Positions 3,929-34,991 of a stretch of 52,475 nt of DNA are shown one piece after another; positions within the stretch are counted from its first letter, which is position 1; every line of letters starts with the position of its first letter. Source of the DNA: Gammaproteobacteria bacterium. Its GTDB lineage: Bacteria; Pseudomonadota; Gammaproteobacteria; Eutrophobiales; Eutrophobiaceae. The notes under the pieces were generated by a model that had not been told where the DNA came from, ran no database searches, and saw only the letters and a program-made list of their open reading frames with translations. The position numbers were made by a program, and so were the translations under genes. The stretch is from positions 1 through 52,475 of the forward strand of contig JAJFKL010000049.1 in NCBI GenBank assembly GCA_021773235.1, written 5' to 3'.

Positions 3929-4273
3929 TTAATCCTCCATTTCTGCTAGATAATCTTCAATTGTCATTTCGAGAAAGTCATTAACCTTCTCCTGAGTTTC
4001 TTCTAAATCGAGATACGTTTCACCGTTGTCCAGGGTAATGATTGTTTCGCCTTCTTCACTGTCGAGATAATCAACTTTGCCACATTGATATGCGACAGGG
4101 TCTGACTCTTTAAGTGAAGCTCCTCCTTTGCCACATGCTTCGCAAGTTTCAACCTGTTCTAACATTTGGTCGTATCTGGAATCAGTGTCAATTTCCTCAA
4201 CTTGGTCAAGGAAATCTTCTTTTAATTCTTTAAGCTTTTCTATTTGTTTTTGTAATTCAATCACGTCAATCAT
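3929..4273 (-). CDS. Hypothetical acidic protein with zinc knuckle, 114 aa
   Basis: The N-terminal 30 residues form a predicted coiled coil (IELQKQIEKLKELKEDFLDQVEEI). It is followed by CEACGKGG and a later CG pair (about residues 43-65), a possible incomplete zinc knuckle. The rest is strongly acidic (LDSEEGETIITLDNGETYLDLEE). The ATG has a GGAGAAC ribosome site. The acidic character could indicate a protein- or DNA-mimic partner, but this is speculation. No family is recognised. Confidence 0.6.
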   Translation of the reverse strand: MIDVIELQKQIEKLKELKEDFLDQVEEIDTDSRYDQMLEQVETCEACGKGGASLKESDPVAYQCGKVDYLDSEEGETIITLDNGETYLDLEETQEKVNDFLEMTIEDYLAEMED

Positions 4274-6176: not shown

Positions 6177-6917
6177 TTAGTTTTTATCCTTGTTTGGGGG
6201 ATTTAATTTTTCCTTCTCAGCGCATTCGTTGATGAATTTCAAAGCATCCTCATTGCTGGCTTCAAAGTTTGGGACTTTTCCATTTAAATACGGGCAAGAA
6301 GCATTGATAATTAACGCACCAGCTACAGAAGGTCCGTATCTCTTTTGAAGCTCGTAACCAGATTGCCCAGCCAAGTGAATAGCGGACCCGCATACACAGT
6401 GAGTTGACCCACACTTTCCGTGATAACTTTTCATTTCGAGAGTGAAATCTTTGGCATCCAAACTAGATTTAATGGCTGTGAATAGGTTTTCCACGACAGG
6501 GGCATCAGGCAATCCTTTTGCACCTTTGAGGTCTGCATTTATCAGGTCTGCATATCTCAGGTCTGCACTTTCGAGGTATGCACTTTCGAGGTCTGCACTT
6601 TCGAGGTTTGCACCTTCGAGGTCTGCACCTTTGAGGTCTGCACCTTCGAGGTCTGCACCTTCGAGGTCTGCACCTTCGAGGTCTGCACCTTCGAGGTTTG
6701 CACCACTCAGGTTTGCACCACTCAGGTTTGCACCTTTGAGGTTTGCACCTTTGAGGTTTGCACCTTTGAGGTTTGCGCGTTCTCCGCCTTCCTGAGATAG
6801 CAACCACTTACCGTTTAGCTCTACTTTTTTATCTAGCTCCTCTTTAGTCATTTCTTCCTCATCAGGGGCTAGCTTTCTGATTGTGTCCTTGACCAGTGTG
6901 GTTGATTGAGAGTCCAT
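6177..6917 (-). CDS. Pentapeptide-repeat protein, copy 1
   Basis: This 246-residue protein has an N-terminal helix ending in [14 protein letters not shown], about 18 pentapeptide repeats (A[N/D]LxG, roughly residues 47-135), and a C-terminal domain with [11 protein letters not shown] and [13 protein letters not shown]. Pentapeptide repeats fold into a right-handed beta helix that can mimic DNA, as in the gyrase protectors Qnr and MfpA; that role here is inference. It is the first gene of the leftward operon. A second copy lies in the opposite orientation at 49203-49949 and is about 90 percent identical in DNA over the C-terminal part. The N-terminal extension (about 32 residues) is longer than in copy 2. 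Confidence 0.9.
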
Positions 6918-6956: not shown

Positions 6957-6985
6957 AATATAATAAACACGTACCTGTTTGTCAA
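6957..6985 (-). promoter_or_regulatory. Sigma70-type promoter for the leftward operon
   Basis: On the minus strand, TTGACA (6985-6980), a 17-base spacer and TATATT (6962-6957) match the sigma70 consensus at 11 of 12 positions. The predicted start near 6950 leaves a leader of about 35 bases before the pentapeptide gene. The -35 TTGACA is also one arm of a TGTCAA-N8-TTGACA inverted repeat (6980-6999), so a repressor could cover it. Confidence 0.85.
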
Positions 6986-9969: not shown

Positions 9970-10623
9970 ATGAGAAGACGACCAGATAAAAATAGAAAAG
10001 CCTCTCTCCCTTCGGCCCACGAACCAAGTGTCGAGCTCCCTTCACTAGAGGAGTGGACAGATAATGAAGTAGTCAGTCTATCCCAAACTGATAAAGTAGT
10101 TGCCCTCCCAGTAAACCCAGTAATCCCCGAAAAAACCTACGAAGAGACGAAGGGAAGAGGCCATACAAGAAAACCTGACGAAGAAAGAAAAGAGAGAAAG
10201 AACGCGCCAAAAGTCAGAATCAATAGCGCACGTCACATGATCGTTGCAATGATGACAGTGAACGGAACTCCGAAAAGCATCATCGCGGCAGTCATGAAGA
10301 TGACGGAGAGTGCTCTTGAACAGGAGTTCGAGTTTGAACTGGTAAACGGTAAAACTTATCTCGATGCTCAGGTTGCAGGGCAGTTGGTGAAAGGCGCACT
10401 AAAAGGAGATTTTAAGTTTGTAAAAATGTATCTGGAAACGAAAGCCGGATACCAGAGCGCAGACAAGAAACCGGACGAAGGACAGAAAGACGGTCTCACC
10501 GAAGTTGAGCGAAGGCAGTTGGCAGCGAATTTGTTGACCAAAAATCCAGAGCTCGCGGAAACTCTCAGACAGCAAGCTAAAAAGATGAAGAAGGAAGACG
10601 TGAAACCTAAACTCATGAACTAA
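9970..10623 (+). CDS. terS: Terminase small subunit
   Basis: The 217-residue product has a disordered, charged N-terminus and a helical core at about 88-150. The core (ARHMIVAMMTVNGTPKSIIAAVMKMTESALEQEF) looks like the helix-turn-helix of phage small terminases. The C-terminus is a charged helix (ELAETLRQQAKKMKK). The subunit recognises the packaging start site and recruits the large subunit. The identity rests on this core, and on the stop overlapping the large-terminase start (TAATG). Confidence 0.8.
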   Translation: MRRRPDKNRKASLPSAHEPSVELPSLEEWTDNEVVSLSQTDKVVALPVNPVIPEKTYEETKGRGHTRKPDEERKERKNAPKVRINSARHMIVAMMTVNGTPKSIIAAVMKMTESALEQEFEFELVNGKTYLDAQVAGQLVKGALKGDFKFVKMYLETKAGYQSADKKPDEGQKDGLTEVERRQLAANLLTKNPELAETLRQQAKKMKKEDVKPKLMN

Positions 10624-13400
10624 TGACAGAAGAAACCGAAGAAAAAATAGAGCCGAACGAGTTAGAGAATCTGTTAGAGATAATGGAGAATCTTCCGGAG
10701 AAAGAAAAGGCGGAGTTTGATCTGCTTCTTCTTGGAGAGAAGCGAGAGAAGTTATGGCAACCTCTTATTGATATCTCTAATCCGACTCAGCCAACTCCAC
10801 AGAAACTTGCTGCCGATTGTCAGGCTGACATTCTTCTGTATGGCGGCGCAGCATACGGGGGAAAGCTATTATGCATCTATACGAAGCTTGTAACACCTTC
10901 AGGGTTTACTGAGATGGGTGATATCAAAGTTGGAAATTTCGTAATTGCTCAAGACGGGACTCCGACAAAAGTTAAGTTTATTTCTGAGATTGAAACTCCT
11001 GAGGATTCTTACGAGGTTGAGTTTTCAACAGGAGAAAAGATTAAAGCTTGTGGGAGACATCAATGGGTCACGTTAACGAATGCTGAACGAGAGCAGCAGT
11101 TAAAACTAACTCCTGAGTATCGAGCAAAGCGTAGAGCTTCACGATCTTCGAGAGCAGTAATAGATTCTAAAAAACCTTGGGCGAGTGAAGGATTGACTCA
11201 GAGAAATCGAGATAAAGTTTACGAGTATAAAAACTCTTCTATGCTAGGTTCGGTAAAAACGACGGAAGAGATTTTAAAAACGTTAAAAGTCAGAGGAAGT
11301 AGAGATAACCATGTCGTTGTGAATTGCGAACCGGTGAAAGGTTTTTTCAGGACTCCCACCGTCGAACCTTATTTGCTTGGGGTTTGGTTAGCGGATGGAA
11401 CGAGTGCTACTGGTGCTGTAGGAATGATGACAAAAGATCTTGACGAAATTCTTAATGAACGTCAGTGGGATTTAGTAAGTGAAAAAATCAAAACAGAAGG
11501 AAGAAAAGAGCCGTACAAGACCGTCGTTGTTAAATACTTAACTAAGTCTTTAAGAAGTTTAGATCTTATAAAAAATAAACATATTCCGGAACAGTATTTT
11601 TTAGCTAGCCTCGATCAAAAAATAGAGCTTCTACAAGGGTTAATGGATACAGACGGAACGTGTGACAAAAAAGGGAAATGTGAAATAGGTTTTTCAAATA
11701 AAGTTTTAGCTGAGAACGTTTTTAGACTGATAAGCTCTTTAGGGATAAAAACCTCCCTAAAAGAAAATAAGCTTCTAAATAAAAAAGCAAAGAAACATTT
11801 CAGAATGCAGTTTAAAACCTCTATACCGGTTTTTCAACTTAGAAGGAAATCAAAAAATCAAACTCTTGAAGGTCACCACTCTCGAATAAATAGACGTTCA
11901 ATTGTTTCGGTTAAAAAGATAAAACCTGTCCCAATGAGATGTATCCAAGTTGAACATGAAAGCGGAACCTATCTTATAACTGAGTCACACATCGTAACCC
12001 ATAACACAAACTTGATCTGTGGTCTTTCTGTTACGCAACATAATCGAGTTTCTATTTTCCGCAGAATGAAAGAAGATCTGATCCCTATCGAGGAAGAGAT
12101 CATAAGTATCAGAGGTCGCCACGGATACAACGGTCAGAAGCATAGATTTTACGTTCCTAAAGAGAATTTGAATATTCGACTCGGCGGAATGCAGTACGAG
12201 AAAAACAAGCAAAGCTATAAAGGCGACGCGAGAGACCTGATGTGTTTTGATGAAGTTCGAGATTTTTCTCGTACGCAGTTTACCTTCGTCATTGGTTGGA
12301 ATCGTTCACCAGATCCGAATCAACGCTGTCGTGTTATTGCTACGACTAACCCCCCTGATAGCGCAGAAGGGGATTGGATCGTGGAGTTTTGGGCTCCCTG
12401 GCTCGACCCTAATCATCCGAATCCGGCAATGCCGGGAGAGCTTCGATATTTTGTCACGGACGAAAACGGAGATGATAAAGAACTCGACGGGCCAGATCCG
12501 ATCATGATGGAGATTGCCGGAGTGGATCAACTGGTCTATCCTAAGAGCAGAACGTTTATCCCTTCATCCATCGACGACAATCCGTACGCTTCAGTAAGTT
12601 ATAAAGCAACTCTACAGTCCCTGCCTGAGCCTCTCAGAAGCCAAATGCTGATGGGTGACTTTATGGCAGGTCGAGACGACGATGCTTGGCAGGTAATCCC
12701 TTCAGCGTGGGTACAGGCAGCACAGGATCGATGGACAGAGCAGAAGCCCGTAGGCGAGAAGATGTCAGCAATGGGAGTTGATGCAGCAATGGGGGGTAAA
12801 GATAAATATGTACTTGCTCCTCGATACGGCTCTTATTTCGGTGAGTTAGTCCGTAAATCCGGAAGAGAGGTTCCGACAGGAGCTCTTGGGTCGGCGTTTG
12901 TGATGCAGCATATCCGCCACGGAGCTTCTATCAATCTGGACATCATAGGATCTGCCGGAGCTGCAACGTACGAGCATCTGAGCTCTAATGGCTCGAACGT
13001 TTTTCCGGTAGACAATAGAAAAAGCACCGCCGAAAAAGAGAAGAACGGTCTTCTAGGATTTTCGAATGTAAGATCCATGAATTTTTGGAGACTGAGAGAG
13101 GCACTAGATCCTGACGGAGATGAGTTGATAAGTCTTCCTCCAGGTTCGCAGGTGAAAGCGGATCTATGCGCTCCGAGATGGAGAAGAGTTCCGAGAGGCG
13201 GATATGTCCATGGAGTTATCGAAGTCGAAGGCAAAGATACAGAGTTGAAAGATGGTTGGGGAGATCTCCGAAAACGTCTAGGTCGATCAACCGACGACGG
13301 AGACGCTGTCGTGAATGCATGGGCCAGAGGGAAGGACACTGTGTCAAAACAGAGAAGCCGAAGCCGTCTTCCGGACAGAGCTAACAACAGGAGACCGTAA
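10623..13400 (+). CDS. terL: Terminase large subunit, interrupted by an intein
   Basis: The 925-residue precursor holds a 380-residue intein at 82-461. Without it the terminase is 545 residues, normal for the family. The ATPase P-loop is split: GGAAYGGK ends the N-extein and T462 starts the C-extein, so splicing restores GGAAYGGKT. Walker B is LMCFDE (Asp543, Glu544 of the precursor). The C-terminal nuclease domain carries MGVDAAMGGKD and later acidic residues (DDGDAVVNAW). TerL packages DNA into the prohead and cuts it. The unspliced precursor should lack ATPase activity. Confidence 0.95.
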   Translation: MTEETEEKIEPNELENLLEIMENLPEKEKAEFDLLLLGEKREKLWQPLIDISNPTQPTPQKLAADCQADILLYGGAAYGGKLLCIYTKLVTPSGFTEMGDIKVGNFVIAQDGTPTKVKFISEIETPEDSYEVEFSTGEKIKACGRHQWVTLTNAEREQQLKLTPEYRAKRRASRSSRAVIDSKKPWASEGLTQRNRDKVYEYKNSSMLGSVKTTEEILKTLKVRGSRDNHVVVNCEPVKGFFRTPTVEPYLLGVWLADGTSATGAVGMMTKDLDEILNERQWDLVSEKIKTEGRKEPYKTVVVKYLTKSLRSLDLIKNKHIPEQYFLASLDQKIELLQGLMDTDGTCDKKGKCEIGFSNKVLAENVFRLISSLGIKTSLKENKLLNKKAKKHFRMQFKTSIPVFQLRRKSKNQTLEGHHSRINRRSIVSVKKIKPVPMRCIQVEHESGTYLITESHIVTHNTNLICGLSVTQHNRVSIFRRMKEDLIPIEEEIISIRGRHGYNGQKHRFYVPKENLNIRLGGMQYEKNKQSYKGDARDLMCFDEVRDFSRTQFTFVIGWNRSPDPNQRCRVIATTNPPDSAEGDWIVEFWAPWLDPNHPNPAMPGELRYFVTDENGDDKELDGPDPIMMEIAGVDQLVYPKSRTFIPSSIDDNPYASVSYKATLQSLPEPLRSQMLMGDFMAGRDDDAWQVIPSAWVQAAQDRWTEQKPVGEKMSAMGVDAAMGGKDKYVLAPRYGSYFGELVRKSGREVPTGALGSAFVMQHIRHGASINLDIIGSAGAATYEHLSSNGSNVFPVDNRKSTAEKEKNGLLGFSNVRSMNFWRLREALDPDGDELISLPPGSQVKADLCAPRWRRVPRGGYVHGVIEVEGKDTELKDGWGDLRKRLGRSTDDGDAVVNAWARGKDTVSKQRSRSRLPDRANNRRP
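10866..12005 (+). other. Intein in TerL, class 3 signature, with LAGLIDADG endonuclease
   Basis: Precursor residues 82-461 form the intein. The first residue is Leu, not Cys/Ser/Thr. Block B has HQW (His146, Trp148). Block F has Cys440 where class 1 inteins carry Asp (MRCIQVE). Block G ends VTHN (Thr459, His460, Asn461), followed by Thr+1. Trp-Cys-Thr at these positions is the hallmark of class 3 inteins, which splice through the block F Cys and have been proposed to come from phages. LLGVWLADG (251-259) and LLQGLMDTDG (336-345) are the two LAGLIDADG helices of a homing endonuclease. The Cys at precursor residue 84 could suggest class 1, but excision there would leave Leu-Leu in the P-loop. 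Confidence 0.85.
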
Positions 13401-20341: not shown

Positions 20342-20938
20342 ATGGCGGCTAGAAGTAAAGAAAAATTAGCGAACAGATCTTTACGGTTAGTAGGGGGTTC
20401 ACGTATCAGTTCTTTCACTGACGGATCTTCGAACGCGAACGCTGTTAACGACGTATATGACGGTCTGTTAGAGTCAGCTCTTGCTTTCCCTTGGGGGTTT
20501 GCGAAGGCGCGAAAAAAGCTGGCACAGATGTATTCTGTGCCAGCTTTTGGTTTTGACTACGCTTACTCTCTTCCATCTGACTGGATTTTTACTGTGTCGG
20601 TTCACGACAATGACTCAGGTACTGGAACTATTACATATAAAGAAGAGCAGGTGGACGATAAGCACGTATTGGTCACTAATTGCGATACTGTGTATATCAG
20701 ATATACAAAATTAGAAACAGACCCTAATAAATGGACAGCTTCTTTCTATGACGCTGTTACATATCTTTTAGCCGGAGAGCTTGCGGTTCCTGTTGCTAGT
20801 TCTGAGTCGCTGGAAACTAGACGAACGCAGCAAGGAAAGAGACGAATGCAAAAGGCTCAGTCCAGGAGTGCTCAAGGGTCAACACCAGAACCTCGGAACA
20901 GGGGAAGCTGGGCAGGTTCTCGAAACAGGTGGAGATAA
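20342..20938 (+). CDS. Tail tubular protein A-like adaptor (T7 gp11 type)
   Basis: The 198-residue length and sequence fit the T7 gp11 family: SKEKLANRSLRLVGGSRISSF, then NDVYDGLLESALAFPWGFAKARKKLA and YAYSLPSDWI. The C-terminus is basic (RRTQQGKRRMQKAQSRSAQG). Twelve copies form the adaptor between portal and nozzle. The stop is directly followed by the nozzle gene. Confidence 0.88.
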   Translation: MAARSKEKLANRSLRLVGGSRISSFTDGSSNANAVNDVYDGLLESALAFPWGFAKARKKLAQMYSVPAFGFDYAYSLPSDWIFTVSVHDNDSGTGTITYKEEQVDDKHVLVTNCDTVYIRYTKLETDPNKWTASFYDAVTYLLAGELAVPVASSESLETRRTQQGKRRMQKAQSRSAQGSTPEPRNRGSWAGSRNRWR

Positions 20939-30327: not shown

Positions 30328-32676
30328 ATGACACTGACAGCCTATTCCCCTGACTCCTATAACGGTGACGGAGCTACCGTTGGGTTTGATATCAATTTTA
30401 TTTTTTGGGACAACTCCGATATTAAAGTTATCCACAAAGACGCAAGTGGCGTAGAAACCACTTGGACCGAGGGAACGCATTATACACAGACAGGCGGAGA
30501 CGGGGCTGTAGGAGCAATCACGGTAAAAACTACTCCGACTGACTACACTCCGGCATCTGGGACAACTCTTACCGTTAAAAGTGCTCTCGCAGACGCACAG
30601 GACGAGTCGCTAACACTTGGAGGAGCTTTCCCTTCTACGACAGTAGAGCGAATGGGGGATAAGCTGGCCCGACTGATTCAGCAAGCCGCTGAAGAAATCG
30701 GCAGATCTCTACAGTTGCCGGAGAGTTCCACAGTCTCTGGACTCACAATGGAAGATCCCACAGCTTTAAGTTTGGTCAGATGGGACGCGCTAGGAACAAC
30801 TTTAGAAAATGTCTCATTAAGCGATCTTTCGCTGGGTCTTGGAACGGCTCTTAAATTTAGTTTTGATTCATCGATCACGATGGCTGACCCAGGAACGGGA
30901 GATGTCAGATTTGATAACGCTACGCTGGCCTCTGTTTCTAACTTAGCTTTTTCTAAATTAACTTCTCAAACAGGAAACCCGGATTTATCGGATTTCATAG
31001 CTACGTGGGGAGATAGCTCGTCTACTATAAAAAGTCATCTCTACATTTATCAAGATGGAACGCCTTCAAATTTTTTAATTGTTCAGATCGATGCGGCAGT
31101 TACTGATAATGGAGATTGGTTGCAGACTGCGGTTACTCATGTAGATAGCGGAGGTTCTTTCACAGCGGCAGATGGGTTAGTGGTCATGTTTTCCAGAACT
31201 GGAGACATAGGAACCACAGGATCGACAGGACCGACAGGACCGACGGGTGCGGCAGGAGCTGGATCACAAGATTTTTCCACAACTACCGACCCTACCGCTA
31301 GCGACGATTCAGCGAACACTAGCGGAAACGGCACTTTCTCAATTAATTCTCAATGGACCAATACAATAACCAATGCGGTTTGGGTGTGTGTTGACGCAAC
31401 TGCTACGTCGGCGGTTTGGGAAAAGATAGTTAAAAAAGTGGATCTGGAAGCCTTGGAAACTAACTTAGCGTTAAACTTTTTCCTTGACGCTATTGACCAT
31501 GCACGATCTTTACAAAGCCTGCAAGACGGTTACGTTGACCAGTTTGAGGATCAGACTGGAGTAGACGATACCAATTCCGTAAATGAGACTTATGACGCGA
31601 CCAACGACTTATACAGCCCGTCAGCACTTGACACGGTTGAATGGTCCACTACGTCAGACGCACAGTTTTCAAACGGCGCAGATAAGTGCGTTAAGCTCGT
31701 AATCCCTGCATCTGAGATAACGAATAGTGGAAACGCTATTAAAGTAACTATGGAGTCTGTGGCTTCGACGAATTTTAAATTCGATAACGTTTATATCGGG
31801 CATCAAGCAACTTCCCCGACTAATGTATGGGATACGGATGGTGGGCAAGTTGAAATATTGTTCGGTGGAACTTCGGGGGGTGAAGCTCCCGCTGGCGGCT
31901 CTACTGAATCAGATGCAACAACTTTTTCTTTGGATGCCAGTAAAAACGTTGTCCTCAGTTTCGACATAAGTAGCGACACGGCAAAAGACGACTTTCGCAT
32001 AGATACATCTAACTCTTCAGGTTTGTCGTATCATGTAAAATCTGCATCGAATGAAGCAAGTGCAACGGCTCCAACAGGATTTAGTACGATTTCAGACCGC
32101 TCTACTGGCTTCATTGCTCTCGATACCGTAGGCGTGGACAACATGACTTTAATCGCAGACCCGGTTGTTGCTCTCGCGGCTCCCGATGACGCTCATGTGA
32201 CTTTGTTTAAGGAAGATGTTGATGCGGTTACATTGAACACTGACTTATTGGCGTGGGCGTCTCGATCAAAGAGAAGCTTTACAACTACCAATGCGACCAA
32301 TTTAATAAACGACACGGCACATCCATACACAAACGGTCAAAGAATTATCTTGGTTTCTTCTGGCGCGGATTTACCTAATGGGTTGGATTCCGAAACGGTG
32401 TACTACGTTGTGAACGCGAACACGAATGACTATCAAGTGTCTCTGACTTCTGGAGGTGCGGCTGTAACTTTCTCCGATGACGGCACTGGAACGCATCAAG
32501 CACATGTAGTAACTGCGGTCACTCTTGCCGACGAAGGTACTTATTCAAGTTACGACATTATTAGCGGAACGGCAGACCTGTCTGGACAGCCTAGCGATAC
32601 TGATATGGGCCTGTTTATTCAAACTAAAAACGTCAAGGACGTGAAGATACATGGTCAGTCCTTACAATGGAGTTAA
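30328..32676 (+). CDS. Tail fibre protein
   Basis: The 782-residue protein starts with the T7 tail-fibre N-terminal domain (TAYSPDSYNGDGATVGFDINFIFWDNSDIKVIHKDASGVETTWTEG, then LIQQAAEEIGRSLQLPES), which docks to the tail. A short collagen-like stretch (GTTGSTGPTGPTGAAGAG, about residues 292-312) follows. The rest is beta-rich and repeats motifs such as YTNGQRIILVSSGADLPNGL, seen in phage adhesins. The C-terminal end binds the host receptor, probably a surface sugar. The collagen-like repeats may aid trimerisation. Confidence 0.88.
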   Translation: MTLTAYSPDSYNGDGATVGFDINFIFWDNSDIKVIHKDASGVETTWTEGTHYTQTGGDGAVGAITVKTTPTDYTPASGTTLTVKSALADAQDESLTLGGAFPSTTVERMGDKLARLIQQAAEEIGRSLQLPESSTVSGLTMEDPTALSLVRWDALGTTLENVSLSDLSLGLGTALKFSFDSSITMADPGTGDVRFDNATLASVSNLAFSKLTSQTGNPDLSDFIATWGDSSSTIKSHLYIYQDGTPSNFLIVQIDAAVTDNGDWLQTAVTHVDSGGSFTAADGLVVMFSRTGDIGTTGSTGPTGPTGAAGAGSQDFSTTTDPTASDDSANTSGNGTFSINSQWTNTITNAVWVCVDATATSAVWEKIVKKVDLEALETNLALNFFLDAIDHARSLQSLQDGYVDQFEDQTGVDDTNSVNETYDATNDLYSPSALDTVEWSTTSDAQFSNGADKCVKLVIPASEITNSGNAIKVTMESVASTNFKFDNVYIGHQATSPTNVWDTDGGQVEILFGGTSGGEAPAGGSTESDATTFSLDASKNVVLSFDISSDTAKDDFRIDTSNSSGLSYHVKSASNEASATAPTGFSTISDRSTGFIALDTVGVDNMTLIADPVVALAAPDDAHVTLFKEDVDAVTLNTDLLAWASRSKRSFTTTNATNLINDTAHPYTNGQRIILVSSGADLPNGLDSETVYYVVNANTNDYQVSLTSGGAAVTFSDDGTGTHQAHVVTAVTLADEGTYSSYDIISGTADLSGQPSDTDMGLFIQTKNVKDVKIHGQSLQWS

Positions 32677-32679
32677 GAA

Positions 32680-32844
32680 ATGTCACAGGAACGACTCGGA
32701 TCAGAAAAGCAGAGAGATTTAGGAAAAAGGAAAAACCTTCTAGGAAAGAAACTTAAAAATAAAACTAAGAAAGATCTAACCAACGCTGACGTCATGAAGT
32801 ATGTTAAAGAGCTAATGGCAAACGATCTCAACTTACGTGACTAA
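32680..32844 (+). CDS. Hypothetical basic protein, 54 aa
   Basis: A 54-codon frame begins four bases after the fibre gene. The product is strongly basic (EKQRDLGKRKNLLGKKLKNKTKKDL) and ends in an amphipathic helix (NADVMKYVKELMANDLNL). No Shine-Dalgarno is obvious, but the spacing suggests coupling to the fibre gene. It may be a fibre chaperone or a lysis accessory; both are guesses. Confidence 0.55.
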   Translation: MSQERLGSEKQRDLGKRKNLLGKKLKNKTKKDLTNADVMKYVKELMANDLNLRD

Positions 32845-32876
32845 AAAAAAACCATAACTCAGGGAGTACGCACAAA

Positions 32877-33302
32877 ATGGTAAGAGACACGGATAGAAAC
32901 GCTGAAGGGGTGAAGAGTAGATCGGGGGAGAAACGCATTCATAAAAACTTCCCGATTAAGAAGAAGGCCGCGGTTCCTGTTTACATACTTACTTCTTTCT
33001 GCGCTGTTCTGGCTTTCTTTATTCAGCAAGGTTTTATCCCGTGGGTCAGTGCGGCAGGATTAGAAATCCATAAACAGGAAGACGCTAAATCAGTCAATCT
33101 TCTTCAGAAAGATTACAAAGAGCAGATAAAAAAGATACAGAGACAGATCGAAGACTCTCGAGAAGATAACAAAATTCAACAGGAAAAAATTCAACAGATT
33201 GAGATTAATCAACACGTCATGCAGACAGACGTATCTCATATAAAAGAAGGTATTGCAGACATTAAAGAACTGTTCCTGCAAGCAAGACCGAGATCTCGAT
33301 AA
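32877..33302 (+). CDS. Membrane protein with long coiled coil (holin or spanin candidate), 141 aa
   Basis: An N-terminal basic segment (KNFPIKKKAAVP) precedes one hydrophobic helix (VYILTSFCAVLAFFIQQGFIPWV, residues 35-57). The rest is one long charged coiled coil (EQIKKIQRQIEDSREDNKIQQEKIQQ). This is the layout of an inner-membrane spanin (Rz-like) with a periplasmic coiled coil. T7-like phages put lysis genes after the fibre. No outer-membrane partner lipoprotein is found. A holin or a fibre-associated membrane protein are alternatives. Confidence 0.55.
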   Translation: MVRDTDRNAEGVKSRSGEKRIHKNFPIKKKAAVPVYILTSFCAVLAFFIQQGFIPWVSAAGLEIHKQEDAKSVNLLQKDYKEQIKKIQRQIEDSREDNKIQQEKIQQIEINQHVMQTDVSHIKEGIADIKELFLQARPRSR

Positions 33303-33310
33303 AAATAAAT

Positions 33311-33338
33311 TTGACATAGTTCGGGGTTTTGTTATTAT
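33311..33338 (+). promoter_or_regulatory. Sigma70-type promoter before the integrase element
   Basis: TTGACA (33311-33316), a 16-base spacer and TATTAT (33333-33338) closely match the sigma70 consensus. Transcription should start near 33345, so the RNA begins with the interleaved hairpin element. It is the best rightward promoter in the window and would drive the small ORF at 33465 and the recombinase. Confidence 0.8.
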
Positions 33339-33352
33339 GAGGTTCAATTTTG

Positions 33353-33448
33353 CTCTTGGACAAGCAATAACAAATTTCGATTAAACATATTTCCCTCTTT
33401 AAAAAACACTTGTCCAAGAGTGTAGTTTTTTAAAGAGGGATTTTTTTT
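33353..33448 (+). promoter_or_regulatory. Interleaved hairpin (pseudoknot/attenuator) ending in a terminator
   Basis: Two perfect inverted repeats are interleaved A-B-A'-B'. A is CTCTTGGACAAG (33353-33364) and A' is 33409-33420, 12 bp. B is 33392-33407 and B' is GTTTTTTAAAGAGGGA (33425-33440), 16 bp, followed at once by eight Ts (33441-33448). A' fills the loop of the B/B' terminator. Pairing of A with A' and of B with B' together would form a pseudoknot; alternatively A:A' is an anti-terminator. With the promoter 15 bases upstream, the RNA may be a small terminated RNA or an attenuator for the integrase. Confidence 0.8.
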
Positions 33449-33464
33449 GTCTACGGAAACGAAA

Positions 33465-33644
33465 ATGTTTTACGAAATAAATGTAACTTCTACAAGACCC
33501 GGAAGTTACTCTTATGACGACCCAGCTAACCATGTTGGGAACTTGATCAAATATAAAAGCGTAATAACGCCCGTCGAAAAACAGGAAGAAGCAAGTGATC
33601 GACGATATCCATGCGTAACCATTTTCAAAAAAAAGATTTTATGA
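33465..33644 (+). CDS. Hypothetical protein upstream of the integrase, 59 aa
   Basis: The ATG at 33465 opens a 59-codon frame; an in-frame TTG at 33447, inside the terminator T-run, is less likely. The sequence (FYEINVTSTRPGSYSYDDPANHVGNLIKYKSV) looks like a small beta-rich protein. Its stop overlaps the ATG at 33641 (ATGA), which suggests coupling to the integrase. Expression would need read-through of the terminator. It could be an excisionase-type partner, but no winged-helix motif is visible. Confidence 0.5.
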   Translation: MFYEINVTSTRPGSYSYDDPANHVGNLIKYKSVITPVEKQEEASDRRYPCVTIFKKKIL

Positions 33645-34615
33645 AAATAAATAAACCGACTTTTAACGAACTTTCCGATAGATACCTAAAAGAACAAGCT
33701 TTTAAAAAATCTATCGATACAGACCAAGTGAATATCGAAATACTTAGACCTCATATAGGTAACTTAACTTTTGATAAAATATACAGAGGATATGACGAAA
33801 GAGAAAACCCAACAGCTCTTGAAAAATTTATCATACGAAGAAGTAAAGAAGGGCTTTCTCTCCGCACTATTAATGCCTCAATTGAAACTATCAATAAGAT
33901 CGGCAATCAAGCTCTTCGAAAATGGAGAACTTCCGAAGGAAAGCCTGTACTTCAAACATTTTTCCCGTCTTATGTCGTTTCAAAAGCCGAAGCCTCGGCC
34001 TTGGGTTTCCGTCTCCCCTCACAAAATGTCTCAATGTCTTGGGATCATCAAATAATACTATTCAATCAAATGAATGACCGCCTCAGAGAAGTTTGTCTGT
34101 TCGCGGTGAATACCGGACTCCGCGAAAAGGAGATTGTTCGACTCAGATGGGAGTGGGAGCAGTTTGATAAGGAGTCCGGTATTCGGTTCTTTATGATCCC
34201 GGCAGAGCATTACAAAAACGGAGAGAACAGATTAGTTGTTTTAAACTCCGTTGCGGAACAGATCGTAAAAAGATGGAGAGGTCTCCATAGTAGATACGTG
34301 TTCAGTTATAAAGGAGAGCGTTTTGATAAGATCAATTCAACTTCATTTAAGCAAGCGAGAATTCGAGGAGCTAAAGTGGATTGTGAGATTCGCAACATTA
34401 CTGTACATTCTTTTCGTGTTACCTTTTCAACTCGTTTACGAGCTGCTAAGGTTCCTGAAGAGGATCGCAAAGACCTCATGGGTCACAGTTCGGGGAGATC
34501 TATGACAACGTTCTACTCTCTCCCCGGATTAGAACTTCTTAAAGAGTATGTAGAAAGAGTCACAAAGCCGGGAACACGCACTATAACTTTGAAAAGGAGG
34601 AATGTGAAATGTTAA
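33641..34615 (+). CDS. int: Tyrosine recombinase (integrase)
   Basis: The 324-residue protein has the full catalytic set: Arg161 (NTGLREKEI), Lys192 (beta-hairpin, HYKNGENR), His256 and Arg259 (HSFRVTF), His282 (LMGHSSG) and Tyr292 (TFYS). The N-terminal part contains a core-binding domain. It would integrate the phage at an att site. The ATG at 33641 overlaps the upstream stop; another in-frame ATG at 33611 lies inside the preceding gene. Integrase implies a temperate or formerly temperate cycle, though no repressor is recognised. Its location between virion and replication genes is less usual. Confidence 0.92.
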   Translation: MKINKPTFNELSDRYLKEQAFKKSIDTDQVNIEILRPHIGNLTFDKIYRGYDERENPTALEKFIIRRSKEGLSLRTINASIETINKIGNQALRKWRTSEGKPVLQTFFPSYVVSKAEASALGFRLPSQNVSMSWDHQIILFNQMNDRLREVCLFAVNTGLREKEIVRLRWEWEQFDKESGIRFFMIPAEHYKNGENRLVVLNSVAEQIVKRWRGLHSRYVFSYKGERFDKINSTSFKQARIRGAKVDCEIRNITVHSFRVTFSTRLRAAKVPEEDRKDLMGHSSGRSMTTFYSLPGLELLKEYVERVTKPGTRTITLKRRNVKC

Positions 34616-34662
34616 AAATTTTTAAATACGTATTTGAAATTTTACCTTTAGAAAGGACTTAG
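34609..34662 (+). CDS. Possible leader peptide, 17 aa
   Basis: AAGGAGG lies at 34593-34599, a perfect ribosome site, and the ATG follows 9 bases later inside the last codons of the integrase gene. The frame encodes 17 residues (MLKIFKYVFEILPLERT), hydrophobic and basic, and stops three bases before the next ATG. The strong site argues for translation. It may couple expression of the next gene or be a membrane micro-peptide. Confidence 0.45.
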   Translation: MLKIFKYVFEILPLERT

Positions 34663-34664
34663 AA

Positions 34665-34991
34665 ATGAAACAGAATTTTATGCGAAGAATTTGGCCTTTG
34701 ATAAATTTTAGCGAAGAGGCAACAAGGTCGATGGGTCTTGACCCGAAGAAATCAATCTTCTCAAACCTATCAAAAGGGTTTAAGTTTAAAAAGGAGGAAG
34801 GTGTATACGTCTACACTAAGCATGACAAATCTGGATTGCCTAGAGCTCTGCGAAGAGTCGCGTCTCAGAAAAAACATTCCAAATACAAAACTGTTATTAA
34901 TCGAATGAAACGAAGAGGAGTTAAAATCCCCGATGTCTACTTTACGAAACCCAGGGCCGTTCAACTGTCTGGAAAAACTCAAGCAAGATGA
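34665..34991 (+). CDS. Hypothetical basic protein, 108 aa
   Basis: GAAAGGAC precedes the ATG. The product is basic with a helical start (FMRRIWPLINFSEEATRSMGLDPKKSIFSNLSKGFKF), a short beta segment (GVYVYTKHD), and a cationic end (RRGVKIPDVYF). It overlaps the next gene's start by 59 bases in another frame. It opens the replication-side gene group. No family is recognised. Confidence 0.6.
   Translation: MKQNFMRRIWPLINFSEEATRSMGLDPKKSIFSNLSKGFKFKKEEGVYVYTKHDKSGLPRALRRVASQKKHSKYKTVINRMKRRGVKIPDVYFTKPRAVQLSGKTQAR

Follow-up and report, generated by a model that had tools for sequence, protein, structure and literature searches.

The question raised by this locus is what two perfect inverted repeats, which cross each other in the gap between the structural genes and the integrase gene of a phage, could do in the RNA. 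The stretch of DNA analysed (the window, 52,475 nucleotides) is a phage contig, C44, with a 141-nt repeat at both ends, the pattern to be expected if a phage genome is complete and either circular or terminally redundant. The genome bin holding the window comprises 2.87 Mb and is 81% complete. The plus strand carries podovirus-type genes, including terminase, head-tail adaptor, major head protein, tail proteins, internal virion protein and tail fibre. After the structural block, this strand continues with two small ORFs (to 33302) and the element; next come a possible small ORF, the integrase and the replication genes (exonuclease, DNA polymerase, helicase and primase). The terms “late” and “early” are assigned here from gene content. 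The list of features of the region is as follows.

33311–33338, plus strand: predicted sigma-70-type promoter motif TTGACA-N16-TATTAT, 11 of 12 consensus matches (TTGACA at 33311–33316, extended −10 TG at 33330–33331, TATTAT at 33333–33338)
33345–33347, plus strand: putative transcription start, placed by the spacing to the −10 hexamer
33350–33367, plus strand: 5′ hairpin of the minimum-energy fold, 5-bp stem TTGCT/AGCAA and 8-nt loop CTTGGACA (33355–33362)
33353–33364, plus strand: repeat A, CTCTTGGACAAG, exact reverse complement of 33409–33420
33392–33407, plus strand: repeat B, TCCCTCTTTAAAAAAC, 5′ arm of the terminator stem, exact reverse complement of 33425–33440
33409–33420, plus strand: repeat A′, within the terminator loop, exact reverse complement of A
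33411–33418, plus strand: TGTCCAAG, part of A′, exact complement of the 5′ hairpin loop
33425–33440, plus strand: repeat B′, 3′ arm of the terminator stem, exact reverse complement of B
33441–33448, plus strand: T8 tract of the intrinsic terminator
33465–33644, plus strand: possible 59-codon ORF 3′ of the terminator, from the ORF call
33611–34615, plus strand: tyrosine integrase gene (PF00589, E 6.8e-16; PHROG integrase, E 1.3e-33)

A TTG start at 33447 gives a 65-aa form of the small ORF. The 59-codon form matched no Pfam family and the 65-aa form no PHROG. Its likeness by eye to the small early proteins of related phages had suggested homology, which was rejected, as BLASTP produced no alignment to two of them. 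No PHROG match to an RNA polymerase was obtained among the 24 window proteins scanned.

Several other features of the window were recorded. A perfect 14-bp inverted repeat (34108–34121 and 34171–34184, 49 nt apart) lies within the integrase coding sequence, and an AT-rich near-palindrome, possibly an attP or a terminator, lies immediately 3′ of the integrase stop codon (34616–34643). A perfect 15-bp hairpin within a tail protein gene (20514–20548), with TTTTTT next to it on the minus strand, looks like an antisense terminator by its sequence. The ORF of the terminase large subunit (10623–13400, 925 aa) has its terminase-family matches in separate stretches, and therefore may hold an insert, for example an intein.

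The position of inverted repeats beside an integrase gene brings to mind a recombination site of the adjoining integrase, in which A and A′ would serve as attP arm sites. This is very improbable: the arms are 44 bp apart, the 12-mer has no other copy in the 81%-complete bin, and the best bin matches outside the contig reached E 0.07 for 33300–33660 and E 1.2 for 34560–34700, in searches that miss short cores.

Crossed repeats and their background frequency

The repeats reported in the initial annotation are letter-perfect and lie exactly where it had put them. As found by a mechanical repeat search, A/A′ comprises 12 bp with 44 nt between the arms, and B/B′ comprises 16 bp with a 17-nt loop, which contains A′ and, as had been claimed, precedes a run of eight Ts. 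The coordinates also bear out the crossed topology: the two stems have no common base and nesting is impossible. Crossing stems of the H-type pseudoknot layout are present, with linkers of 27, 1 and 4 nt, in a locus for which the energy model used computes nested structures only. Region 33388–33450 folds with −23.8 kcal/mol (z −6.0), a stability that none of 200 shuffles reached, and this stable hairpin passes directly into the U tract (T8), so by sequence and folding it has the properties of an intrinsic terminator. The Rfam search yielded zero window matches at gathering score, and for 33250–33650 it yielded 21 matches at E up to 10, all far under the gathering scores.

The crossed-repeat arrangement is real and rare. 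With the terminator taken as given, and with the 17-nt loop and the 47-nt leader Markov-resampled, 3 of 200,000 resamplings produced a match of 12 nt between loop and leader, and 0.6% of them one of at least 8 nt. Crossed perfect pairs (arms of at least 11 nt, gap of at most 60 nt) were seen in 0 of 300 resampled windows, compared with one in the real window. The latter holds five perfect inverted repeats of at least 12 nt, A/A′ and B/B′ being two of them, against a resampled mean of 0.29 and a maximum of 4. The resampled-window null is too kind, because real genomes are richer in repeats. Across 3.82 Mb of other loci, a set where overlapping loci enter the base count more than once, 6 distinct crossed pairs were found, which amounts to about 0.08 per 52 kb; three of the six are copies of GGTGCGCAAT and a fourth is a similar word. 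Therefore a crossed pair, the terminator not being required, is to be expected about once per dozen such windows.

A search for the same architecture was carried out in 314 loci (3.82 Mb), looking for a perfect stem of at least 8 bp, a T-rich tail and a loop word complementary to the upstream 110 nt; loci in which both 12-mers occur were treated as window copies and excluded, overlapping loci were counted repeatedly, and earlier runs had used fewer loci and a slightly larger minimum loop. Among 287 terminator-like hairpins, the loop match reached 7 nt in 21, 8 nt in five and 11 nt in two, and no 12-nt match was found. The two 11-nt cases (L247 and L248, identical there) were discarded as repeat arrays of GGTAACAG, unrelated to the element; at L247:6540–6840 these words form an intergenic, iteron-like array in both orientations. 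Two of the 8-nt cases represent one terminator common to two Azospirillum loci (L174:18005–18080 and L175:18436–18496), the loop of which has TCCCACCC, an 8-nt complement of the word GGGTGGGA just upstream. This is a weaker form of the crossed layout, possibly due to chance. A literature search covering titles, abstract openings and few subscription papers revealed no terminator with a loop complementary to its own leader.

The strong promoter assigned to this place by the initial annotation was recovered as a motif. TTGACA-N16-TATTAT is present just 5′ of A and is the best plus-strand match of the window, while by itself it is weak evidence: the window has two matches of 11/12 against a mean of 0.67, and at least two occurred in 9 of 60 resampled windows. 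The sole other match of this quality is on the minus strand (6957–6985), upstream of a leftward ORF (6177–6917) with repeated “GANLKGANL” motifs, which presumably encodes a pentapeptide-repeat protein.

Predicted folding of the RNA

In the nested energy model, the nascent RNA starting at 33345 forms A/A′ with a probability of 0.998–1.000 at accessible 3′ ends 33416–33436, and then B/B′ with a probability of 0.96 at end 33438 and 1.00 afterwards. The minimum free energy passes from −19.2 at 33437 to −26.7 at 33440. The predicted switch is sharp. Coming at 33436–33438, it falls at the last bases of the terminator stem, with the polymerase expected within the T tract or slightly beyond it. The final nested structure consists of the 5′ hairpin (33350–33367) and the terminator (−27.3 kcal/mol, z −4.4 to −4.5), and at full length forcing A/A′ gives −19.4 versus −27.3, so that the terminator is favoured by about 8 kcal/mol. 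Taken by itself, the 5′ hairpin is weak: 20 of 200 shuffles are as stable as its −3.5 kcal/mol (z −1.6).

In this final fold A and A′ can each form a hairpin loop, and the 8-nt loops CUUGGACA (33355–33362) and UGUCCAAG (33411–33418) are exact complements; the energy model adds two further pairs inside the A′-side loop. Given the arms, the chance of both being placed as closed loops is about 0.009. The duplex energies are −10.5 kcal/mol for the 8-mers, −18.5 kcal/mol for A/A′ and −20.8 kcal/mol for B/B′. As A and A′ are complementary loops in the final nested fold, kissing of the two loops and a full 12-bp pseudoknot stand on an equal footing. Of the two modes proposed at the outset, a two-state path is what the energy model predicts, and a pseudoknot lock is a hypothetical alternative, the final nested fold being the 5′ hairpin with the terminator. 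The nested model has no simultaneous stems, and is therefore silent on whether the terminator forms across A/A′ or after its opening. A pseudoknot with both stems formed and termination retained seems sterically possible by our own estimate from helix and linker lengths.

The predicted dominance of A/A′ varies with where the transcript begins. From start 33300, A/A′ reaches only 0.35–0.58 for ends 33424–33432; from start 33100, it is 0.92–0.999 at the three ends computed before the switch. A hairpin at 33318–33380 (−14.8 kcal/mol, 4 of 200 shuffles as good) could mask A in RNAs coming from upstream. A start-site-dependent terminator based on this masking was considered and dropped as not robust, since start 33100 still gives strong A/A′.

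The same fold would suit a small phage RNA, about 100 nt long and with its 3′ end at the terminator, which would act in trans via its two complementary loops, as a self-dimer or by kissing the read-through transcript. Such an RNA has its own promoter motif and terminator, two exactly complementary 8-nt loops and a stable fold (z −4.4 to −4.5), and it has a precedent in IsrK, a prophage system of promoter, sRNA, terminator and read-through mRNA where the sRNA acts on its own mRNA (PMC4825925). Against it, the 81%-complete bin holds no exact copy of the 12-mer besides A and A′, the window sites with at most two mismatches number 9 versus 5.8 expected (19 of 100 shuffles reach 9), and conservation was not found in the searches given below. 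We consider a trans-acting RNA somewhat unlikely.

Related phages and the structural–replication junction

No search found a homologue of the element. Region 32600–34700 had zero DNA matches in phage records; region 33300–33460, at E up to 10, matched 90 records, and the 20 listed match 28–33 nt with E about 6. The pattern A-N25..55-A′ had 0 matches in IMG/VR, and among 53 genomes of the order the element DNA was found in the window alone (1/53). The major head protein was found in the window's own bin alone among the same 53 genomes (1/53) and in the window alone among 369 genomes of the class at E 1e-60 (1/369). Its IMG/VR relatives are 53–65% identical (best 80 of 202) and those on GTDB contigs 37–58% identical (best 80 of 109); among these best 80 GTDB contigs, the titles are mostly alphaproteobacterial, but the two closest (57–58%) bear the titles Nitrosospira and Candidatus Dependentiae. 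Neither the portal nor the DNA polymerase had an IMG/VR relative. The integrase matched three IMG/VR loci at 35–43%, 200 phage records (best 36.8%) and 12 of the 53 genomes of the order, own bin included, and its surroundings differ from the window in the three named phages inspected. These searches found no relative close enough for a compensatory-change comparison of A/A′.

The junction itself could be read in two relatives. Among the 5 and 11 loci with genes listed, those from two contigs, G057 and G058, whose head proteins are 61 and 62% identical, have the structural block and then an exonuclease homologue on the same strand. Their junction carries a different structured RNA, made up of a long stem and an inner hairpin, and then a strong terminator (z −4.1 and −7.6). 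The inner hairpin has the same sequence in both, ACGGGTACGCCTTGCCCTTCCTG; the structured RNA with this identical 23-nt inner region lies between structural and replication genes at L093:10515–10610 and L096:14385–14492. The outer stem of the relatives' junction RNA is partly changed in sequence and folded in both, and the RNA has no Rfam match at gathering score. Its 17-base core occurs in six IMG/VR stretches, two of which are G057 and G058; the other four have only the core in common within the printed stretch. The crossed pair is absent at the junctions of G057 and G058, and alignment of the element with them gave no evident homology. It follows from the window and these two junctions that a terminated structured RNA exists at this boundary in three phages, with crossed repeats in the window only.

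This observation also fits an ordinary terminator of the upstream (late) genes beside the promoter of the integrase operon, A/A′ then being a repeat that arose by chance or acts at the DNA level, such as two protein-binding sites that both contain the dyad CTTGNNCAAG. Besides the two relatives with a strong terminator and no A/A′, crossed repeats in real genomes are not vanishingly rare. A and A′ are near-palindromic, and therefore their inverted pair also resembles two copies of a dyad site; CTTGNNCAAG sites number 4 in the window against a shuffle mean of 1.1 (3 of 100 shuffles reach 4). However, of the four dyad sites the remaining two, at 4201 and 5584, are within minus-strand ORFs and have only half-sites in common. 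A binding-site model also does not predict one copy exactly inside the terminator loop, and the loop-to-leader match is far outside the resampling null. In our judgement an ordinary terminator with an incidental repeat is unlikely.

A putative leader with a delayed terminator and its comparison with known systems

The explanation we prefer, tentatively and as quite possible, is that the element is a promoter-proximal leader RNA of about 100 nt, in which the A/A′ helix would delay the RNA's own terminator ahead of the integrase. It accounts for the letters, the topology and the folding order of the nested energy model by putative promoter use, delay, read-through and regulation. The leader is suggested because exact crossed repeats are very unlikely given the terminator, the predicted nascent switch from A/A′ to B/B′ is sharp, the terminator is strong (z −6.0), the best plus-strand promoter match is directly upstream, both arms are placed as closed loops, and the element is flanked by the final structural-block ORF and the integrase, with all three on the plus strand. 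Points against the leader include the lack of any base common to A/A′ and the terminator stem, the pseudoknot that by our estimate could keep both stems and still terminate, the preference for the terminator at full length, the weak 5′ hairpin, the weaker A/A′ from start 33300, the lack of a homologue and of a crossed pair in the two readable relatives, and the genome-wide excess of inverted repeats.

RNA polymerase would start at about 33346, and A′ would pair with A on emergence (12–14 bp), forming a helix whose loop contains B. B′ would emerge last, and its pairing with B would require that A/A′ be displaced, or else that a pseudoknot form across A/A′. The terminator would thereby be delayed while the polymerase passes over T8, leading to partial read-through, first of the small ORF and the integrase and perhaps also of genes farther downstream. 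Terminated RNAs (about 100 nt) would refold into the 5′ hairpin and the terminator hairpin with their complementary 8-nt loops, which may kiss. Occupancy of A or A′ by a second RNA copy, another RNA or a protein would shift the balance. The control of lysogeny or of the recombinase suggested at the outset is a possibility; a possible 59-codon ORF intervenes between the terminator and the integrase. A more specific version, which we regard as rather doubtful, is a terminator clock working by topology: the early helix would thread the terminator loop without taking stem bases, the stem would have to form across that helix, and read-through into the integrase would be set by the delay, or by a second RNA copy that captures the loops, which would make it depend on phage number. 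Should read-through be governed by the A/A′ helix, the integrase would be timed without a ligand or protein, by topology in place of shared bases. The element presents a compact case for measuring directly how intrinsic termination responds to a threaded terminator loop.

No known RNA family was matched, and by analogy the element would work like an attenuator or the IsrK read-through leader. Transcription attenuators and pseudoknot riboswitches rely on cotranscriptional competition of an early helix with the terminator, and in classical attenuators the early helix uses terminator-stem bases. Here A/A′ also forms first in the nested model, but the helices have no common base and would compete only by topology. 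Since A/A′ takes no base of the terminator stem, it is not a classical antiterminator, and any exclusion of the terminator by it would be topological only. In the RNAI/RNAII kissing antisense pair of ColE1, the apical loops of 7–8 nt are fully complementary, as they are in the element; unlike in ColE1, both loops here are in one RNA.

The immunity of phage P4 involves a processed trans-acting RNA and separate complementary sites upstream and downstream. Complementary segments (seqA, CI RNA and seqC) in its untranslated leader decide premature termination (PMC4825925). Short complementary segments in a phage leader are common to both systems, whereas the element has a single complementary pair with one member in the terminator loop. 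No further exact 12-mer site was found in the window or bin; the nearest further site in the window, with one mismatch, is in the DNA polymerase gene.

In the isrK-orf45-anrP leader of Salmonella prophage Gifsy-1, an alternative helix joins the sRNA IsrK to the read-through ORF and controls translation (PMC4825925). In contrast to IsrK, the complement here is part of the terminator loop, and there is no evident role in translation. Like that leader, the element would combine a prophage promoter, here predicted, a short RNA with an intrinsic terminator, a downstream small ORF with further genes that read-through would reach, and alternative helices in one transcript.
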